64,000 nt of DNA from Methanococcoides methylutens (GTDB lineage Archaea > Halobacteriota > Methanosarcinia > Methanosarcinales > Methanosarcinaceae), in the NCBI RefSeq assembly GCF_000765475.1, contig NZ_JRHO01000014.1, positions 637,687 to 701,686 of the forward strand. The letters run 5' to 3'. The notes beneath the pieces are model-generated. The model did not search any database and was not told the DNA's origin. It saw only the letters and a list, made by a program, of their open reading frames with translations. Each line of letters opens with the position of its first letter. Position 1 is the stretch's first letter. This document shows, in pieces, positions 14,143 to 26,198 of the stretch. The position numbers and the translations under genes were made by a program.

Positions 14143-15306
<1,164 letters not shown>

Positions 15307-15429
15307 GGATGACCTCACTTTCTCTTTTTGTATTTTCACTTAACAGATAGTTGCAACACTGCCTGAACCGCTAACAGAAGACCAAAACAGCTATAATCTA
15401 AAAAGAATAATGGAAGAGAGTACAAGTGT

Positions 15430-15501
15430 GCGGCTGTGGTTTAGAGGCTATGACCTGAGCTTCCCAAGCTTGGAACCCGGGTTCGATTCCCGGCAGTCGC
15501 A
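15430..15501 (+). tRNA. tRNA-Gly (anticodon CCC)
   Basis: A 72-nt cloverleaf. The acceptor GCGGCTG pairs with CAGTCGC with one G-T pair; the T arm is CCGGG-TTCGATT-CCCGG; the anticodon loop TTCCCAA gives CCC, reading GGG. The discriminator is A and CCA is not encoded. A TATA-like TATAATC lies upstream around 15392. The AT-rich CBASS island starts within about 40 nt of its 3' end, so it may have been an integration target. Confidence 0.93.
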
Positions 15502-15540
15502 TGGGTTTCTGATGGTGATTTTTGCAGGGAATTGAGCTAT

Positions 15541-15856: not shown

Positions 15857-16432
15857 ATGAGTTTAAAAAAGAATGTAATGGTTCTCGCAAGTGGTGGGAT
15901 TGATTCTACAGCGTGTATTCATTATTATCTATCTCTTGGCTTTAATGTTAAATCTTTTTTTGTAAATTTTGGTCAGAAATCTTTTAAAAAGGAATATGAA
16001 AGTGTCCAAAAGGTTTCATCTTACTATGAAATCGAATTATCATCTATAAAATGCAATTTTTCAAATAATTTTTCAAATGGAGAAATCACTGGAAGAAATG
16101 GATTTTTGGTTCTTTCAGCAATTATGGCAAACCCTCATTTTAAAGGATTACTTTCTTTGGGAATACACTCTGGAGTGCCATATTATGATTGCACTCCTGC
16201 TTTTGTGCATGATATGAATAGAATTGTTGAATCCTATACAGACGGTCAAGTAAATCTGGATGCGCCTTTTCTGAATTGGGATAAGCTTATGGTATATGAT
16301 TACTGCAAAAATGAAGATGTGCCTGTTAATTTAACTTATAGTTGTGAAAATGGTAGATTTAAACCGTGTGGTCAATGTCTTTCATGTTTGGATCGGAGAA
16401 TCTTAGATGCTAGCCAGAAAATTAGAAATTAA
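15857..16432 (+). CDS. cap9: QueC-like PP-loop enzyme of type IV CBASS (Cap9-like)
   Basis: A 191-residue homologue of QueC (7-cyano-7-deazaguanine synthase). The ATP-binding PP-loop is SGGIDST at residues 12-18. The four-cysteine zinc site is complete: C163, C171, C174 and C177 in the C-x7-C-x2-C-x2-C spacing of QueC. It is shorter than housekeeping QueC (about 220 residues or more). As first gene of an operon with a TGT-like protein, a CD-NTase, an HhH glycosylase and a SLATT effector, it fits the QueC ancillary protein of type IV CBASS. I recall recent work in which this protein makes an amidated or nitrile deazaguanine for protein conjugation; that should be checked. Overlaps the next gene by 26 nt. 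Confidence 0.85.
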   Translation: MSLKKNVMVLASGGIDSTACIHYYLSLGFNVKSFFVNFGQKSFKKEYESVQKVSSYYEIELSSIKCNFSNNFSNGEITGRNGFLVLSAIMANPHFKGLLSLGIHSGVPYYDCTPAFVHDMNRIVESYTDGQVNLDAPFLNWDKLMVYDYCKNEDVPVNLTYSCENGRFKPCGQCLSCLDRRILDASQKIRN

Positions 16433-17387
16433 ATACAACGATATTGGTATAATAACTACTCCAATACTATTACCATCTTTATCAAGTAGACTCAATCTTG
16501 ATATATCCAATACAATTAGACTACTGAGTGAAGTTGTAACAGGACCATTTCTAATAAGTTCTTATGACACCCATTATTGTAAAAATTTCCCAAAGATTGA
16601 GTTTCCAAATCTGATATTCCTTGATAGTGGTGGATACGAATGCACAGTCGATAATGATGTTTCTGAAATGGGCCTATATAAGCCAGAAGCTTGTTCTTGG
16701 GATGAACAAACTCATCTTGAATCAATAACAAATTGGGAGTCGGAGATCCCTACCGTAATCATTAGTTATGATCATCCATCGAAACGGGAAAATTTGGAAA
16801 GTCAAATTGAAAATGCAAAGAAATTATTTCAACTGAAAGACCATTTTTTAAAAGAGCTATTAATTAAACCTGAATCTTCAAATGAAAATACCGTAAATAT
16901 CAATAATGTAATCGAGAAATTGGATTTGTTAAATGAATTTGACATTATTGGTTTTACCGAAAAAGAACTCGGAACATCTGTGCTCAAAAGAATGGAGAAT
17001 ATTGCAAATTTAAGAAAAAAAATGGATGAGAAAGATATTCAAATACCCATTCATATTTTTGGCAGTTTAGATCCTATTACTACTCCACTTTACTATTTTT
17101 CAGGTGCAGATATTTTTGATGGGCTTTCATGGTTGAGATTTACATATGAAGAACAATCTGGTAATGCAGTATATAGAAATTGTATTGGACCAAAGAAAAA
17201 TGGAATTCATGCAAACATGAACTTCATTTGGTTAAGTTCAATATATAGTAATTATAATTATCTCGGAAGACTTGAAATTAACTTAAAAAAATTCAACGAT
17301 TCCCATGACTTCAGTATTTTTGGAGAAAATAAAGAATTTTTTAAGAAGTCGTGTGATGACCTTTCTGAAGCAATTGGAGGGTTTTAA
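16407..17387 (+). CDS. cap10: TGT-like transglycosylase of type IV CBASS (Cap10-like)
   Basis: A 326-residue protein with tRNA-guanine transglycosylase signatures: FLDSGGYE (about 71-78) corresponds to the DSGGFQ substrate pocket, and GADIFDGLSW (about 231-240) corresponds to the region holding the catalytic aspartate (GxDMFDCV in TGT). The CxCxxC...H zinc site of ordinary TGT is not seen in the C-terminal part, so the tRNA-binding end is changed. That agrees with a non-tRNA substrate. The ATG at 16407 has GGAG at 16396 and overlaps the QueC-like gene by 26 nt; its TAA overlaps the ATG of the CD-NTase gene by 1 nt. Composition is AT-rich like the rest of the island. Confidence 0.8.
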   Translation: MLARKLEIKYNDIGIITTPILLPSLSSRLNLDISNTIRLLSEVVTGPFLISSYDTHYCKNFPKIEFPNLIFLDSGGYECTVDNDVSEMGLYKPEACSWDEQTHLESITNWESEIPTVIISYDHPSKRENLESQIENAKKLFQLKDHFLKELLIKPESSNENTVNINNVIEKLDLLNEFDIIGFTEKELGTSVLKRMENIANLRKKMDEKDIQIPIHIFGSLDPITTPLYYFSGADIFDGLSWLRFTYEEQSGNAVYRNCIGPKKNGIHANMNFIWLSSIYSNYNYLGRLEINLKKFNDSHDFSIFGENKEFFKKSCDDLSEAIGGF

Positions 17388-18325
17388 TGGGAGGATCAGG
17401 AGGAGGATATTACTATCCTTCGTCAAATAGGTATAAAGAAGACCTTGATAAAATTAGACAAGAAAGTTATGATGAGTCTTTTGAAACTTCTGTAAATGAA
17501 CTTATTGCAGAAAAATTAGGGGAAGCAAATTCAAGGGATTCTGTGAAAACAAGGGAGTATTTGGATCAGATTAAGGAAATTATTGAATCTGATATTGAAG
17601 GAACAGTAAATCTTCAATTTGGTGGTTCAGTCAGTAAATTCACTTATGTTGAAGGACTTAGTGATGTTGATGCATTGTTAAAAATAAATAATTCAGAATT
17701 ATCCGATAAAAGTCCGAATGAAGTATTAGAATATATCAGATCGAGGTTTGAATCTGAAATAACCAATGCTAACGAAATTAAAGTTGGGAAACTAGCAGTT
17801 ACTATAAAATATAACGACGGAACTGAAATACAAATACTTCCAGCTATTAAAAGAAGAGATGGCTTTAAAATTCCAGCTCGCAATGGAAAAGAATGGTCTA
17901 ATATTATTCGACCTGATAAATTCGCATCTCGATTAACTGAGGTGAACCAAAATTGTGGCGGAAAAGTTGTTCCAGTTATCAAAATGGTAAAACACATTAA
18001 TTCAAATCTTCCTCCTGAACAGCAATTATCAGGATATCATATTGAGTCATTGGCTATTGAAATCTTCAAATCATATCCAAAAGAATTGAATCGAACTAAT
18101 AAAACAATGACAAAATATTTTTATCAAGAAGCGAGTGAGAAAATAAAAAGTCCAATTAAAGATAGAACAAATCAGTCACTTCACGTTGATGATTATCTAT
18201 ACAGTGAAAATTCGCCTCAGAGAGTGCGTATGAGTTATATATTGAGTAATACCTACAAAAGAATGAAGGCTGCTGATGATATGAAGTCAGTAGAAGCATG
18301 GAAGTATATTCTTGGTGACGATTAA
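17387..18325 (+). CDS. CD-NTase (cGAS/DncV-like nucleotidyltransferase) of CBASS
   Basis: A 312-residue nucleotidyltransferase predicted to make a cyclic oligonucleotide when phage is sensed. The active site shows FGGS (78-81) and, after 11 residues, SDVDALL with D93 and D95, the GS...DxD core of CD-NTases. The place of the third carboxylate reads EIQILPA (147-153), with Q149 where many relatives have Asp; E147 is nearby. The N-terminus is MGGSGGGYYYPSS, a flexible Gly-rich tail that precedes the fold and may be the acceptor for modification by the two upstream enzymes. Translationally coupled on both sides by 1-nt overlaps. The signal produced cannot be read from sequence. Confidence 0.85.
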   Translation: MGGSGGGYYYPSSNRYKEDLDKIRQESYDESFETSVNELIAEKLGEANSRDSVKTREYLDQIKEIIESDIEGTVNLQFGGSVSKFTYVEGLSDVDALLKINNSELSDKSPNEVLEYIRSRFESEITNANEIKVGKLAVTIKYNDGTEIQILPAIKRRDGFKIPARNGKEWSNIIRPDKFASRLTEVNQNCGGKVVPVIKMVKHINSNLPPEQQLSGYHIESLAIEIFKSYPKELNRTNKTMTKYFYQEASEKIKSPIKDRTNQSLHVDDYLYSENSPQRVRMSYILSNTYKRMKAADDMKSVEAWKYILGDD

Positions 18326-18987
18326 TGAATTATGAGTTATTACAAAAGTACAATTTTGCAAAAACGATTGTCATTGATCAAGGATTCCATGATGAAATTA
18401 GCTGGCAAGCTAAAATATCTTTTGAAGATTTGGATGAGAGAACGTTCTTACGTGAATTTTCATGGGTAGTTCTTTCTTCTGGAATGAAAAATACAGTTAT
18501 TGAAAAGAAATTCGATCCAATCTCGAACTGCTTTTATGAATGGGAATCTGCATCATTGATTGCTAAAAATTGTACACAATGTTTAAAATCTGCAATCAAG
18601 ATATTTAACAATAAAGCAAAGATGAGTGCAATCATTGATGCTGCAAGTAGGATTAATAAAGAAGGATTTTCCAAAATAAAGAAACTAATAGAAAAAGATC
18701 CTATTAAGTTCCTACAGGAATTCAAATTCATTGGACCTATTACAGTTTATCATTTAGCAAAGAATATTGGACTGGACTTTGCAAAACCTGATCGCCACCT
18801 TCAGAGAATTGCATCTATGCACAACTATTCAGATGTTCAATCATTTTGTAGAGATATTTCAAAACATATTGGGGATAGTGTTCCCGTTGTAGATATTGTG
18901 TATTGGAGATTTGCTACAATTGAACCTGATTATCTCAATGTACTGTCCTCTCTAAATATAGATACTAACACATTATTGAAACATTAA
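18325..18987 (+). CDS. HhH-GPD DNA glycosylase-like protein of type IV CBASS (OGG-like)
   Basis: A 220-residue protein with one helix-hairpin-helix and the downstream aspartate of the HhH-GPD fold: FKFIGPITVYHLAKNIG at about 133-149, then KPDRHLQRIA with D156 at the catalytic Asp position. The lysine that bifunctional OGG/Nth enzymes have in the hairpin (GxK) is replaced: here the hairpin reads GPIT. No C-terminal 4-Cys Fe-S loop is present. This suggests a monofunctional or non-catalytic member. OGG-like proteins are the third ancillary component of type IV CBASS. Its ATG overlaps the CD-NTase stop by 1 nt. Confidence 0.75.
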   Translation: MNYELLQKYNFAKTIVIDQGFHDEISWQAKISFEDLDERTFLREFSWVVLSSGMKNTVIEKKFDPISNCFYEWESASLIAKNCTQCLKSAIKIFNNKAKMSAIIDAASRINKEGFSKIKKLIEKDPIKFLQEFKFIGPITVYHLAKNIGLDFAKPDRHLQRIASMHNYSDVQSFCRDISKHIGDSVPVVDIVYWRFATIEPDYLNVLSSLNIDTNTLLKH

Positions 18988-19039
18988 ATCAAATATTTTT
19001 TATAGTTGTGTTATTTAATAAATATCAGAGGCTATTCTA

Positions 19040-19657
19040 TTGATCGAATTTGATATCTATAAAAAGGAAATAAAACAACTTGAACATAAAGCAAATATGA
19101 TGAGGGATATGCATTCATATCAATTTCAAAAATACGAATGGCTTTCAAAATTTTTCTCTTTAATGATAATTGCATTGTCGGCAATAGTATCTGTATTAGC
19201 CATAGTAGATCCTAGTATATTTTCTATCGATAGAAATTATATTGATTCTTTTCGTAATTTAATTGCGATTTTAGCATTTATTATCTTCTTGATATCGCTT
19301 ATTGATAAAATATATGGAATTAATGAAAATGCAAGAAAACATGAACAAGCTGTTAAAGTTATGACTGATTTTATAGTGGAATGTAACAATTTCAGGAAAT
19401 TAGAAACTAACTCATGTGGTAAAGAAGAGATCAAGTTGAAAGTCGATTCGTTAGAAGCCCAATATTCACTAATTAATCAAATGAACCCTTTTCCAGTTAT
19501 TTCAGATGAAGATTTCATAAAAGCCAAAAAAAAACATTTGCTCAAGGTCGAAATTAGTAAAAAACTGAGCAAGAATCCTCATGAAGAAATAGACGATTAC
19601 GTTAATAAAAGATGGTTGATTAATGCACTTAAATGGATGAGAGGTCTATTGTTTTAA
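19040..19657 (+). CDS. SLATT-domain two-TM effector of CBASS
   Basis: A 205-residue membrane protein starting at TTG 19040, with GAGG at 19028-19031. Two hydrophobic helices lie at about 38-56 and 70-90, after an amphipathic N-terminus with EHKANMMRDMHSYQF and followed by charged helices (NENARKHEQAVKVMTDF). This is the layout of SLATT proteins, effectors that are thought to form pores or disrupt the membrane when a nucleotide signal binds. It is separated from the glycosylase gene by 52 nt but points the same way. It is the most likely killing component of the system. Confidence 0.8.
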   Translation: MIEFDIYKKEIKQLEHKANMMRDMHSYQFQKYEWLSKFFSLMIIALSAIVSVLAIVDPSIFSIDRNYIDSFRNLIAILAFIIFLISLIDKIYGINENARKHEQAVKVMTDFIVECNNFRKLETNSCGKEEIKLKVDSLEAQYSLINQMNPFPVISDEDFIKAKKKHLLKVEISKKLSKNPHEEIDDYVNKRWLINALKWMRGLLF

Positions 19658-19838: not shown

Positions 19839-21101
19839 ATGGGGGAAATCACAACTAGCGAATTAGCTGAAAACTTGCATAATTATAAGGTAATCGACAT
19901 CCGACCTATCGATGCCTATAATGGCTGGAAGGAAGGCGGAGAGGCAAGAGGCGGGCACATTAAGGGTGCGAAGACGCTGCCTTACAAGTGGTTACACTAT
20001 ATTGACTGGATTGAGATCGTAATGAATAAAGGGATCCTGCCGGAAGATTCCCTGGTCATTTATGGGTATGACACACAGAAAACAGAAGAGGTTGCAAGGC
20101 AATTTGAAAAGGCCGGCTATCCTGATGTAACTGTTTACAACTCATTTCTTGAATGGGCGGAAAAGGATCTGCCCATGGAGCATCTTGCAAGATATAGACA
20201 GCTGGTCTCGGCGGACTGGCTCGATCAATTGATCACTACGGATGAAGCGCCGGAATATGACAATGATAAGTTCGTGTTATGTCATTCTCACTACAGGAAC
20301 CCTTCCGATTATGATGAAGGGCACATTCCAGGAGCAATATCCATTGACACCAACTCTCTTGAATCAGAGGTGACATGGAATCGGCGTTCTCCGGAAGAGA
20401 TAAAGGAAACCCTGGAAAACGCGGGGATCACTCATGATACAACGGTTATTCTCTATGGAAGGTTCTCTGCGCCAAGTTATGATGATCCGTTGCCGGGAAG
20501 CAGTGCAGGCCATCTGGGTGCAATGAGATGTGCATTCATCATGCTTTATGCCGGTGTGAAGGATGTTCGCATACTTAACGGTGGACTGCAGTCATGGGTT
20601 GATTCAGGTTATGAGATCACTAAGGAGCCTGCTAAAAATGAGAGGGTGTCTTTTGGAATTGAAATTCCTCACAAACAGGAGATTATGGTTGATCTTGAAG
20701 AAGCAAAAGAGATCCTTGCATCCCCGGACAAAAACCTGGTGTGCGTTAGAAGCTGGAGAGAATACATCGGGGAAGTGAGTGGGTACCATTACATTGAAAA
20801 GAAAGGCAGAATTCCGGGAGCAGTATTCGGGGATTGCGGAACAGATGCTTACCACATGGAAAACTACAGGAACCTTGATCACACCATGCGCGAAGCTCAG
20901 GAAGTTGCAGAGATCTGGGAGAAGATCGGGATAACTCCTGAAAAACGCAATGCATTCTACTGCGGAACTGGCTGGAGGGGCAGTGAAGCCTTCTTTAACG
21001 CGTGGCTCATGGGCTGGGATAAAGCAGCGGTCTATGATGGTGGATGGTTCGAGTGGAGCAATAACGATCTTCCTTTTGAAACAGGGGTACCGGAAGAATG
21101 A
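19839..21101 (+). CDS. eanB: triple-rhodanese sulfurtransferase, EanB-like
   Basis: A 420-residue protein with three rhodanese repeats (about 1-115, 125-270 and 280-415). The first begins with VIDIRPIDAYNGW, the second with LCHSHYRNPSDYDEGHIPGA and the third with VRSWREY. Only the last domain has an active-site loop of the sulfurtransferase type, FYCGTGWRGSEA, with the cysteine at residue 375. This matches EanB, which in Chlorobium limicola replaces a C-H of hercynine with sulfur to give ergothioneine without oxygen. Its stop overlaps the start of a histidine methyltransferase gene by 4 nt, which strongly supports the call. A TATA-like AATATAAC near 19810 suggests a leaderless mRNA. Confidence 0.75.
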   Translation: MGEITTSELAENLHNYKVIDIRPIDAYNGWKEGGEARGGHIKGAKTLPYKWLHYIDWIEIVMNKGILPEDSLVIYGYDTQKTEEVARQFEKAGYPDVTVYNSFLEWAEKDLPMEHLARYRQLVSADWLDQLITTDEAPEYDNDKFVLCHSHYRNPSDYDEGHIPGAISIDTNSLESEVTWNRRSPEEIKETLENAGITHDTTVILYGRFSAPSYDDPLPGSSAGHLGAMRCAFIMLYAGVKDVRILNGGLQSWVDSGYEITKEPAKNERVSFGIEIPHKQEIMVDLEEAKEILASPDKNLVCVRSWREYIGEVSGYHYIEKKGRIPGAVFGDCGTDAYHMENYRNLDHTMREAQEVAEIWEKIGITPEKRNAFYCGTGWRGSEAFFNAWLMGWDKAAVYDGGWFEWSNNDLPFETGVPEE

Positions 21102-22060
21102 TCATCGAAGATTTCATGCCACAGGTAGGGGATAGTGTAATTAGGGAAAAACTGGCAGCCTGCCTGAGGTCCGATCCCAAAACACTTCCTTCCATGTACT
21201 TCTACGACCATCGTGGATCAGAATTGTATGAGGAGATCACTAAGTTAGAAGAATACTATCCTCCAAAGATCGAGATCCCATTGCTCAGGTCAACTGCCCG
21301 GAAATTGAAGCAGGAGCTGAAAGACTGTGATCTTGTAGAGCTTGGAAGCGGGGACTGTTCGAAAATTTCCGTATTTCTCGATGAAATCCCGGAAGAGATT
21401 CGCCAGACCATCGTGTATTACCCTGTTGACGTCTGCAAAGATTCCATCGAGAAATCTGCCTGTAACCTTCAGAATAAATATCCCGAAATGGGAATCCATG
21501 GGATCACCGCTGACTTCCTTGAGCATATTGAAAAGATCCCGGGAAAAAGAAAACGGTTCTTCTGCTTCTTCGGAAGCACGATCGGCAATTTTACCGAGGC
21601 AAGAGCAATGGAATTCATGGCAGATCTCGGAAAGGCCATGAATGAGAACGACAGGCTTCTCCTTGGAGTGGATATGGTAAAAGATATTGACATCATCGAG
21701 AAAGCCTACAACGATCGCCAGGGGATAACCGCAGAATTCAATAAGAACATACTGAAAGTTACAAATGATCATCTTGGGACCGATTTCGATCCGGAGGAAT
21801 TTGAGCACGTTGCATTCTTCAACAGGGAACATTCCAGGATCGAGATGCACCTGAAAGCAAAGGATGATCTGGAAGTGGCAAGCCCAATTCTGGATGAGAA
21901 GATAATCTTCAAAAAAGGTGAGACGATCCACACCGAGAACTCTCACAAATACACTGTAGAGGGTATCAAAAGAATGGCAGGCGCTGCCGGGCTTTCCGTA
22001 GAGAACATCTTTAGCGATGATAAAAAATGGTTCTCCCTTGTAGAGATGGTGAAAAGATGA
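21098..22060 (+). CDS. eanA: L-histidine N-alpha-trimethyltransferase, EgtD/EanA-like
   Basis: A 320-residue SAM methyltransferase of the EgtD family, which makes hercynine from histidine. Family features: N-terminal KTLPSMYFYDHRGSELYEEIT (about 28-48), the SAM motif VELGSGDCSKI (about 75-85), the FFGSTIGNF segment (about 151-159) and the C-terminal SHKYTVEGIKRMA. The name EanA is used because the partner is EanB-like and no EgtB sulfoxide synthase gene is present. It overlaps both neighbours by 4 nt (ATGA junctions), so expression is coupled. Confidence 0.85.
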   Translation: MIIEDFMPQVGDSVIREKLAACLRSDPKTLPSMYFYDHRGSELYEEITKLEEYYPPKIEIPLLRSTARKLKQELKDCDLVELGSGDCSKISVFLDEIPEEIRQTIVYYPVDVCKDSIEKSACNLQNKYPEMGIHGITADFLEHIEKIPGKRKRFFCFFGSTIGNFTEARAMEFMADLGKAMNENDRLLLGVDMVKDIDIIEKAYNDRQGITAEFNKNILKVTNDHLGTDFDPEEFEHVAFFNREHSRIEMHLKAKDDLEVASPILDEKIIFKKGETIHTENSHKYTVEGIKRMAGAAGLSVENIFSDDKKWFSLVEMVKR

Positions 22061-23238
22061 CAGATTTTGCAAAGGATTTCCCGATACTTTCACAAAAGGT
22101 GTACGGGAAAAGACTGGTCTATCTTGATAACGCGGCAACGACCCAGAAACCGGACTCTGTGATCGACACGATGTCCGACTTCTACAGGACAGAATACAGT
22201 AACATCCACAGGGGTGTGCATTACCTGAGCGAGGTCTCAAGTGAGAAGTATGAGGAAGCACGCAAAAAGGTCAGTGACTTCATAGGTGCTCGCAACCCGA
22301 GTGAAGTGACATTTACTTCCGGAACAACCGGTTCCATTAATCAGGTCGCACGCTCACTTGAACCTTCCTTAAGGGGAAATGAAGTCCTTGTGACCGGTGT
22401 GGAACACCACTCGAATATCGTACCATGGCAGCTTGCAGGTGCAAAGGTAAAGGCAATTCCCATGGATGAGGATTGCAAATCGCTGGTTGACTCAATGGAG
22501 ATCACAAGTCGAACAAAATTGATAGCAATCGCGCATGTCTCAAATGTTCTTGGTTCTGTAAATGAGATCAGGGAGATCACTGAGATTGCAAAGGATCACG
22601 ACATCCCGGTACTGGTGGATGCAGCCCAGTCAATACAGCATCTGCCTATTGATGTGAAAGAGATCGGTTGCGACTTCCTGGCATTCTCAGGCCATAAGAT
22701 GTATGCATCCACCGGAGTTGGAGTGCTTTATACAAGCGATCGCTTCAGCGATATCATGCCGGCAATAGGCGGAGGGGGCATGATCGATAAGGTAACCTTT
22801 GAAGAAACAACATACCTGGAACCTCCCCTGAGGTTCGAAGCCGGCACACCGGACATCGCGGGAGCAATAAGTATCGGTGCAGCAATCGATCACATGCAGA
22901 AAATAGGCATGGACAAGATACAAAGCCATGAGCATGAGGTCTATTCCTACGCAAGGGACAAACTGCTGGAAATGGATAATGTGACAGTTTATGGAAATAC
23001 CAAACAGATGTGCGGAGCTGTCTCATTCAATCTGGACAATATTCACCATTATGACACAGGATTGATACTGGACAAAATGGGGGTTGCCGTCAGAACCGGG
23101 CATCATTGCGCTCAGCCATTGATGAGATCACTAGGTATCGAAGGCACGGTCAGAGCAAGTTTTGCATTGTACAACACAAAAGAAGATGTTGACATGCTGA
23201 TCGAAGGGATAAACAAAGTAGAGATGATGTACAAGTGA
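22057..23238 (+). CDS. sufS: cysteine desulfurase, SufS type
   Basis: PLP enzyme that takes sulfur from cysteine to form a persulfide. The PLP lysine is in SGHKMYASTGVGVLY (about 217-231), and the active-site cysteine is in RTGHHCAQPLM (about residue 351), the group II (SufS/CsdA) pattern. The start ATG 22057 overlaps the methyltransferase stop; an upstream in-frame ATG at 22027 lies inside that gene and is less likely. The location between the EanA-like gene and a SufE gene suggests it supplies sulfur to the EanB-like protein, although a general Fe-S role is possible. Confidence 0.9.
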   Translation: MTDFAKDFPILSQKVYGKRLVYLDNAATTQKPDSVIDTMSDFYRTEYSNIHRGVHYLSEVSSEKYEEARKKVSDFIGARNPSEVTFTSGTTGSINQVARSLEPSLRGNEVLVTGVEHHSNIVPWQLAGAKVKAIPMDEDCKSLVDSMEITSRTKLIAIAHVSNVLGSVNEIREITEIAKDHDIPVLVDAAQSIQHLPIDVKEIGCDFLAFSGHKMYASTGVGVLYTSDRFSDIMPAIGGGGMIDKVTFEETTYLEPPLRFEAGTPDIAGAISIGAAIDHMQKIGMDKIQSHEHEVYSYARDKLLEMDNVTVYGNTKQMCGAVSFNLDNIHHYDTGLILDKMGVAVRTGHHCAQPLMRSLGIEGTVRASFALYNTKEDVDMLIEGINKVEMMYK

Positions 23239-23651
23239 ACGATGCTATCCAGGATGAGATCATCAAGCAATTTGAAGGCCTTGAATGGTTTGACAAATAT
23301 GGTCTCCTTATCTCTTTTGCCAAAGAGCTCGAACCCATGAGCGATGAGTTCAAAACCGAAGACAATGCGATCAGCGGATGCCAGTCCAAGGTCTGGATCA
23401 GAAGCCATACTGAAGATGGAAAATTGATCTTTGATCTCGATAGCGATGCGATGATAACGAAAGGGATCATTTCCCTTGTAGCTAAGGTGGTGAACAATCG
23501 CCCCCCTCAGGAGATATTGAATGCTGACCTGTATTTCATTGATAAGATCGGATTAAAATCAAACCTCTCACCTGCGAGATCAAATGGGCTGAAGTCGATC
23601 ATCACCAGAATAAAAGAGGTAGCTAAAGAAGAGGCTGATTCGAACAGCTAA
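23235..23651 (+). CDS. sufE: SufE-family sulfur acceptor
   Basis: A 138-residue SufE/CsdE-like protein, starting at GTG 23235 inside the sufS stop (GTGA). The sulfur-accepting cysteine is in SGCQSKVWI (about residue 55). SufE takes the persulfide from SufS and boosts its activity. As last gene of the operon it could pass sulfur to the rhodanese cysteine of the EanB-like protein; that step is inference. Confidence 0.88.
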   Translation: MNDAIQDEIIKQFEGLEWFDKYGLLISFAKELEPMSDEFKTEDNAISGCQSKVWIRSHTEDGKLIFDLDSDAMITKGIISLVAKVVNNRPPQEILNADLYFIDKIGLKSNLSPARSNGLKSIITRIKEVAKEEADSNS

Positions 23652-24858: not shown

Positions 24859-24935
24859 CCTTGTGCTGACTCCTGGAACCCACTTTTTTATCAAACGATG
24901 ACAAAATATTTCAATGATTGACACATTGTAAATTT

Positions 24936-26198
24936 ATGACATCCAAACAAACTATTCTGGCAATCCTGCTTCTAACACTCTCACTAACCTGCATCGGTTG
25001 TGTCGAGAATACACAGGCAGATCCCGACACCACCATAAACGCACAATCTGTTGAGGAATATGACCTTGCTGCTGCGAACAATGACTTTGCCTTTGACCTG
25101 TACTCAGAATTACAGGACGGAGGCGATGAGAACCTGCTCATATCCCCTTACAGCATCTTCACTGCAATGGCGATCTGTTATGACGGATCGGCAGGGAACA
25201 CGCAGGAAGAGATGGCGAATGTCTTCTACTATCCAATGGACAGGTCAGTTTTGCGATTGAGCGCTAAAGACTACATCCACACGATAAACAATGACCCGGA
25301 TGAATATGAATTAACAACTGCCAACGCACTGTGGCTGAGGAAAGGAGTTCAGCTTAAGCCGGAGTACGAAAGTGCTGTTGAGAATTACTATTCTGGAAAG
25401 ATAGAGGAACTTGATTTTGCCAATGACCCAAAAGGTTCCATTGACACCATCAACAAATGGATCGAGGAGAAGACCAACAACAAAATAAAAGACGTGTTGA
25501 ATAGCGATGCTATTGACGGCAGCAAAGCAATGGTAATCACAAATGCCATCTATTTCAACGGGAAATGGATAAATGAATTCCCGGAAGAAAACACAAAGAA
25601 AGAATACTTTCACCCTTCCGAAGGACAACAAAGCAGTGTCGACATGATGAGCACTTCCGGATTTTACAACTATGGGGAGAGCTCCAAAGCACATATCATC
25701 GAACTGCCATACAAAGGCGATGATCTTTCCATGTACGTCGTCCTCCCGGAAAATGCGGACATTGGCAGCTTTGAGAGTTCATTCACACTGAATGAATATA
25801 ACAGCCTTAAAATGAACATGAACACAGACCACGAAGTGAATCTCTGGTTGCCAAAATTCAAGTTTGAGAGCACAACACAGCTATCGGACACCCTTGCCGG
25901 GATGGGGATGACGGATGCATTCTCAAATGCTAATTTCTCAGGGATCAATGAAGAAGCCGACCTGACGATATCAAGAGTTATCCACAAAGCAGTGATTGAC
26001 GTACAGGAAAAAGGAACAGAAGCCGCTACAGCCACAGCGGTTGTAGCTGAAGACGGCCTTTCGTACAACCAGCCGGTCATAAAAGAGTTCAGGGCAGACC
26101 ACCCGTTCATGTTCTTTATCGAAGACAAAAGGACCGGATGCATCCTCTTCATGGGAAAGGTCGAACATCCTGAGTACGATGAGGTCACACCAGAATGA
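24936..26198 (+). CDS. secreted lipoprotein serpin
   Basis: A 420-residue serine protease inhibitor of the serpin fold. The N-terminus is a signal peptide ending in LTCIGC, a lipobox-like site, so the protein is probably anchored outside the cell. Serpin landmarks: NDFAFDLYSEL and NLLISPYSIFTAMAI at the start, TNAIYFNGKW in the shutter region and DHPFMFFI near the end. The reactive-loop hinge EKGTEAATATAVV keeps the small residues needed for loop insertion, so it is probably inhibitory; by hinge counting P1 falls near E-D-G-L-S. ATG 24936 is preferred to TTG 24918. Archaeal serpins are uncommon. Confidence 0.9.
   Translation: MTSKQTILAILLLTLSLTCIGCVENTQADPDTTINAQSVEEYDLAAANNDFAFDLYSELQDGGDENLLISPYSIFTAMAICYDGSAGNTQEEMANVFYYPMDRSVLRLSAKDYIHTINNDPDEYELTTANALWLRKGVQLKPEYESAVENYYSGKIEELDFANDPKGSIDTINKWIEEKTNNKIKDVLNSDAIDGSKAMVITNAIYFNGKWINEFPEENTKKEYFHPSEGQQSSVDMMSTSGFYNYGESSKAHIIELPYKGDDLSMYVVLPENADIGSFESSFTLNEYNSLKMNMNTDHEVNLWLPKFKFESTTQLSDTLAGMGMTDAFSNANFSGINEEADLTISRVIHKAVIDVQEKGTEAATATAVVAEDGLSYNQPVIKEFRADHPFMFFIEDKRTGCILFMGKVEHPEYDEVTPE

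Follow-up and report, generated by a model that had tools for sequence, protein, structure and literature searches.

In the salt-water methanogen Methanococcoides we identified a compact operon that probably specifies an oxygen-independent route for ergothioneine synthesis, equipped with its own sulfur supply. It comprises four same-strand ORFs, eanB-eanA-sufS-sufE, at positions 19839-23651 (+) of the window, i.e. the whole 64,000-nucleotide stretch of Methanococcoides methylutens DNA that was analysed (Table 1). EanA and EanB were already known from Methanosarcinaceae; the part for which we found no earlier report is the SufS and SufE of the operon, which make it a variant of a known pathway.

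Table 1. Coordinates of the ean operon and of neighboring features in the window
Feature	Position	Strand	Basis
SepSecS/SepCysS-family gene	14152-15306		
tRNA-Gly(CCC)	15429-15502		
Type IV CBASS-like defence set	15857-19657		
eanB, triple-rhodanese ergothioneine synthase, 420 aa	19839..21101	+	phmmer E 1.3e-169 to C. limicola EanB 6ktv; 59% identity; residue mapping
eanA, EgtD-like L-histidine N-alpha-methyltransferase, 320 aa	21098..22060	+	TIGR03438; EgtD substrate residues
sufS, type II cysteine desulfurase of the ean-linked clade, 393 aa	22057..23238	+	TIGR01979; conserved residues; own clade
sufE, transpersulfurase, 138 aa, GTG start	23235..23651	+	PF02657; C49
Serpin protease inhibitor gene	24918-26198		

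Organization and identity of the four genes

The preliminary description had reported 4-nt overlaps at every junction, and all three are indeed present when the SufS start is taken as 22057, which is the start conserved in relatives, rather than the 22027 of the mechanical ORF list. Of the 12 other four-gene loci from Methanosarcinaceae, 11 show all three of these overlaps, a recurrence which argues that the arrangement is not due to chance and is under selection. Only four genes make up the operon, and neither SufB nor SufC is co-encoded as in a SUF Fe-S assembly operon. Conserved neighbor genes were rejected as a clue to function, the flanks of the operon varying between genera.

The product of the first gene contains three rhodanese stretches recognized by Pfam, and its best solved relatives are the EanB structures of C. 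limicola. Its identity to this characterised enzyme is 59%, as against 40% to E. coli YnjE, a triple-rhodanese sulfurtransferase of the same fold, the homology to EanB extending over the full length; the closest named EanBs are those of M. vulcani (90%) and of other Methanococcoides (87-88%). Residues Y316, C333, C375, T377 and R380 of the window protein correspond respectively to Y353, C370, C412, T414 and R417 of C. limicola EanB, and the equivalents of all five are invariant in 82 of 82 aligned EanBs. Hence, the single CGTGWR loop with C375, described earlier for this protein, harbors the equivalent of the catalytic Cys412. We nevertheless rejected the catalytic residues as proof of EanB identity, because the Y353/C412/T414/R417 set and the CGTGWR loop are common to YnjE. 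What YnjE lacks is the equivalent of C370 along with 33 further near-invariant EanB positions (34 EanB-specific positions in all). Given that YnjE shares the catalytic set, EanB membership rests on overall similarity, on these 34 positions and on gene context. The phylogeny that had been proposed as a check on this assignment agrees with it, the window protein falling among EanBs in a rooted tree.

The second gene product scores 352 bits against the curated equivalog model TIGR03438 (egtD; cut-off 290.9), and the EgtD substrate residues Y54, N164, Y204, E280 and S282, which serve in histidine binding, are kept in 58 of 58 aligned sequences. The third scores 509.6 bits against TIGR01979 (sufS; cut-off 475.1), with both the persulfide cysteine (C351) and the PLP lysine (K214) conserved, and the fourth 142 bits against PF02657 (SufE; cut-off 27). 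C49 of the latter, the predicted persulfide carrier, is a cysteine in all 25 ean SufEs accompanied by SufS and in all 7 without it. The initial naming of the genes as EanB, EanA, SufS and SufE is thus upheld by the identity to EanB and by scores above the respective cut-offs. As a separate observation, Methanosarcina-like genomes without EanB (G074-G104, G004-G009) encode a distant EgtD-family methyltransferase, always without SufE; these proteins mostly reach 60-97 bits against PF10017, as compared to about 340-360 for EanA.

Phyletic association of SufE and SufS with EanB

Among 112 Methanosarcinaceae genomes EanB was detected in 29 and SufE, above the Pfam cut-off, in 30; among 393 genomes from across the phylum the corresponding counts are 23 and 24. 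The sole mismatch in both samples is G051, in which an EanA-SufS-SufE locus is cut by the end of the contig, and apart from it no SufE without EanB was found in the 393-genome sample. In 27 of the 29 genomes the two genes share contig and strand, with SufE following the start of EanB at a distance of ~3.4 kb, and in the other two they are split across contigs. The window genome has a single SufE, that of the operon. This tracking of EanB by SufE across the 393 genomes indicates that SufE in Halobacteriota genomes is a gene of the ean operon rather than an Fe-S factor. An earlier survey noted SufE in no more than 10 of 132 genomes of Methanosarcinales and treated it as an Fe-S factor (Johnson 2021, PMC8351635); the ean operon offers an explanation for this sporadic distribution.

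SufS matches are present in 111 of the 112 Methanosarcinaceae genomes, but in those lacking the ean copy the match is a homolog that is 38-46% identical. The window genome has one such separate SufS besides that of the operon, as do nearly all its relatives with or without ean genes, which implies that the ean SufS is an additional copy. In a tree of 56 SufS proteins, from which a duplicate of the window operon (L088) was left out, the 20 ean-linked SufSs group together in a single clade (SH-aLRT 98) that excludes the remaining 36, among which are the second SufS copies encoded by these genomes and the suf-operon SufS of Bacteroides, Priestia and Ligilactobacillus; an earlier careful tree recovered the ean-linked clade with support of 94/97. 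The members of this clade come from Methanosarcinaceae, Thermoplasmatota, Omnitrophota, Elusimicrobia, Fibrobacterota, Ignavibacteria, Planctomycetota and Aminicenantes. In the SufE tree, which is short and weakly resolved, the suf-operon SufEs of Bacteroidota form their own clade apart from the ean SufEs (100). Thus, while the window operon shares with the SUF system the same two enzymes and their conserved cysteines, it differs in having no SufBCD nearby, in the distinct SufS clade and in the separation of its SufE from the housekeeping SufEs of Bacteroidota.

Two branches of EanB

We compared 80 EanB loci from public genomes, chosen as the closest to the window protein, in which the linkage labels depend on contig extent, with 15 of 74 left unassigned. 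EanB has both SufS and SufE as neighbors in Methanosarcinaceae, Thermoplasmata, Aminicenantes, Omnitrophota, Elusimicrobia, Fibrobacterota, Ignavibacteria and Phycisphaerae, and SufE alone in Caldithrix, Gemmatimonadetes and some Ignavibacteriales. No such neighbor was seen for the Bacteroidota/Chlorobiota EanBs examined, except in L047, a locus labelled Bacteroidetes which has SufE beside EanB and groups with Ignavibacteriales. In the EanB tree, whose bootstrap is not fully settled and whose YnjE root is a long branch, all 24 SufE-linked EanBs, with or without SufS, form one clade (98/93; in 98% of bootstrap trees). The biochemically studied EanB of C. limicola falls in the unlinked part. The YnjE-rooted topology suggests that SufE was recruited once. 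On balance we favor a division of EanB into two branches, one of which, comprising Methanosarcinaceae, Thermoplasmatota and many anaerobic bacteria, would be cysteine-fed: either a dedicated SufS-SufE pair, or SufE together with a general SufS, would load EanB by protein-to-protein persulfide transfer, and the methanogen SufE would be an ergothioneine factor instead of a part of Fe-S assembly. The split partly follows taxonomy among the nearest 80 loci. Bacteroidota genomes with unlinked EanB carry SufS and SufE elsewhere; hence, the missing linkage does not show that their donor or chemistry is different.

The nearest relatives of the methanogen EanBs among these 80 loci are bacterial, which, together with the bacterial type of SufS, suggests that the ean genes of methanogens were acquired by transfer from bacteria. 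All complete archaeal loci have EanA adjoining EanB, and an EanA-like gene is present somewhere in 20 of 24 bacterial genomes, many of them drafts and most without EanA seen beside EanB. This distribution is consistent with hercynine being the substrate throughout the carriers of EanB.

Two candidates for a cysteine unique to SufE-linked EanBs were rejected: C231 is enriched only (25/28 linked versus 16/46 unlinked), and C302 is not enriched (10/28 versus 32/46). The sole positions fixed in 28 of 28 SufE-linked EanBs are N371 (20949-20951) and S222 (20502-20504), which in unlinked EanBs are usually L and A, respectively. N371 is situated four residues before the catalytic cysteine, just ahead of the active loop.

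Loss of the operon and its genomic surroundings

Three ean-negative Methanococcoides relatives were compared at the locus delimited by tRNA-Gly(CCC) and a YdjM-like gene. In G018 the last 31 codons of SufE are the sole remnant, in G019 the upstream region of the operon persists with only the first ~45 codons of EanB, and in G016 no trace of the operon was detected at this locus. The scars in the first two imply that the operon was ancestral to at least part of the genus and has been lost at least twice, all four functions going together as a unit.

Directly upstream of the window operon, between the tRNA gene and eanB, lies a complete type IV CBASS-like defence set encoding QueC, TGT, an oligonucleotide cyclase, OGG and a two-transmembrane effector. 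In a comparison of L134 (1-5300), L121 and L119, the DNA beside tRNA-Gly(CCC) was found to vary, being this CBASS-like set in the window, an integrase-like gene with a large ATPase in G019 and short non-coding DNA in G018; judged by gene content, this flank looks like an integration hotspot. A SepSecS/SepCysS-family gene, possibly coding for a Sep-tRNA:Cys-tRNA synthase of cysteine formation, precedes the ean operon in Methanococcoides, and in Methanohalophilus it is located directly upstream (L014, 4520-5740). The serpin gene on the other side of the operon is conserved at the locus in a relative.

The predicted pathway and alternative interpretations

We infer that the product is ergothioneine, that SufE passes sulfur on to EanB, and that cysteine is the main cellular donor. 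In this scheme EanA would trimethylate histidine to hercynine, while SufS would convert cysteine to alanine, retain the sulfane sulfur as a persulfide at C351 and hand it to C49 of SufE. The latter would load C375 of EanB, possibly via the EanB-specific C333, and EanB would then attach the sulfur to the imidazole ring of hercynine at C2 to yield ergothioneine. The feasibility of such a cysteine-to-EanB route is supported by the use of E. coli IscS with cysteine to supply purified EanB (as described in PMC11767532), and by the unrelated ergothioneine synthase MES, in which a fused cysteine desulfurase is the obligatory sulfur source (PMC9516567). While MES resembles the window system in its product and in drawing sulfur from a cysteine desulfurase, it is a molybdopterin enzyme with a fused NifS/IscS-type desulfurase, whereas the window encodes a rhodanese with separate SufS and SufE, and none of its four proteins contains a molybdopterin domain.

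In vitro, polysulfide can serve directly as the sulfur donor of C. limicola EanB, as summarized in a review (PMC10903977), and it is a possible parallel donor in the window system. Thus, of the two parts of the earlier proposal on sulfur supply, a SufS/SufE persulfide relay is strongly supported by the exclusive co-occurrence, the single clades of EanB and SufS and the loss of the whole operon, whereas the choice of cysteine rather than polysulfide is tentative, and both donors may be used. The same in vitro activity, along with the placing of methanogen SufE in an Fe-S frame (Johnson 2021, PMC8351635), would fit a different reading, in which EanA and EanB use sulfane sulfur derived from polysulfide or sulfide, with SufS and SufE merely co-transcribed to serve Fe-S clusters or tRNA thiolation. 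This we regard as unlikely: SufE does not occur independently of EanB in the phylum sample, ean-negative relatives keep another SufS yet do without SufE, the ean SufS is a pathway-linked clade that spans two domains, and sufB and sufC are absent from the operon.

It is still less probable that the product is something other than ergothioneine, with hercynine serving as a betaine osmolyte or EanB thiolating another heteroaromatic compound. Hercynine is a betaine, the genera that carry the operon are halophilic and marine methylotrophs, and Leisinger and colleagues reportedly suggested in 2019 that EanB homologs act on other substrates; however, hercynine alone would need no sulfur genes, the pairing of EanA with EanB described above holds in archaeal loci and most bacterial genomes, and EanB retains 59% identity to a characterised synthase. 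A selenoneine pathway with SufS as selenocysteine lyase is highly improbable, for although SufS-type enzymes can act on selenocysteine, the operon has no selenium genes and its SufS attains only 176 bits against the Sec-lyase model NF040779 (cut-off 525).

Relationship to known systems and implications

The preliminary description, which offered oxygen tolerance and sulfur storage as candidate roles, regarded ergothioneine synthesis as unexpected in a strict anaerobe. This view is out of date, as it was an anaerobe that first revealed the pathway and methanogen EanA/EanB have already been published (PMC11993508, PMC7278568). Homologs were reported in Methanohalophilus mahii (Burn 2017, cited in PMC11993508) and Methanococcoides vulcani (Rawat and Maupin-Furlow 2020, PMC7278568), with ergothioneine stated in the latter account to be undetected in archaea as of 2020. 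Both species have the same operon as the window, the EanB of the M. vulcani locus (L021) being the 90% identical one, but the relevant passages of the published accounts leave the SufS and SufE genes unmentioned. The C. limicola EanA/EanB (Burn 2017, Leisinger 2019, Cheng 2020) are likewise a homologous methyltransferase and rhodanese-type synthase with the same catalytic residues; they differ in that the C. limicola EanB belongs to the unlinked group, whereas the clade of the window EanB has SufE, mostly with SufS, alongside. In the open-access literature we found nothing linking SufE or SufS to EanB, though the original EanB papers might mention both, and among publications containing both "ergothioneine" and "SufE" no title or abstract concerns the ean operon.

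With the SufS-SufE pair, the anaerobic ergothioneine pathway gains a plausible in-cell source of sulfur, a matter that feeding of polysulfide in the test tube leaves unsettled. Since the operon is found in culturable methanogens that have ean-negative sister species, the role of ergothioneine under anoxic conditions becomes directly testable.
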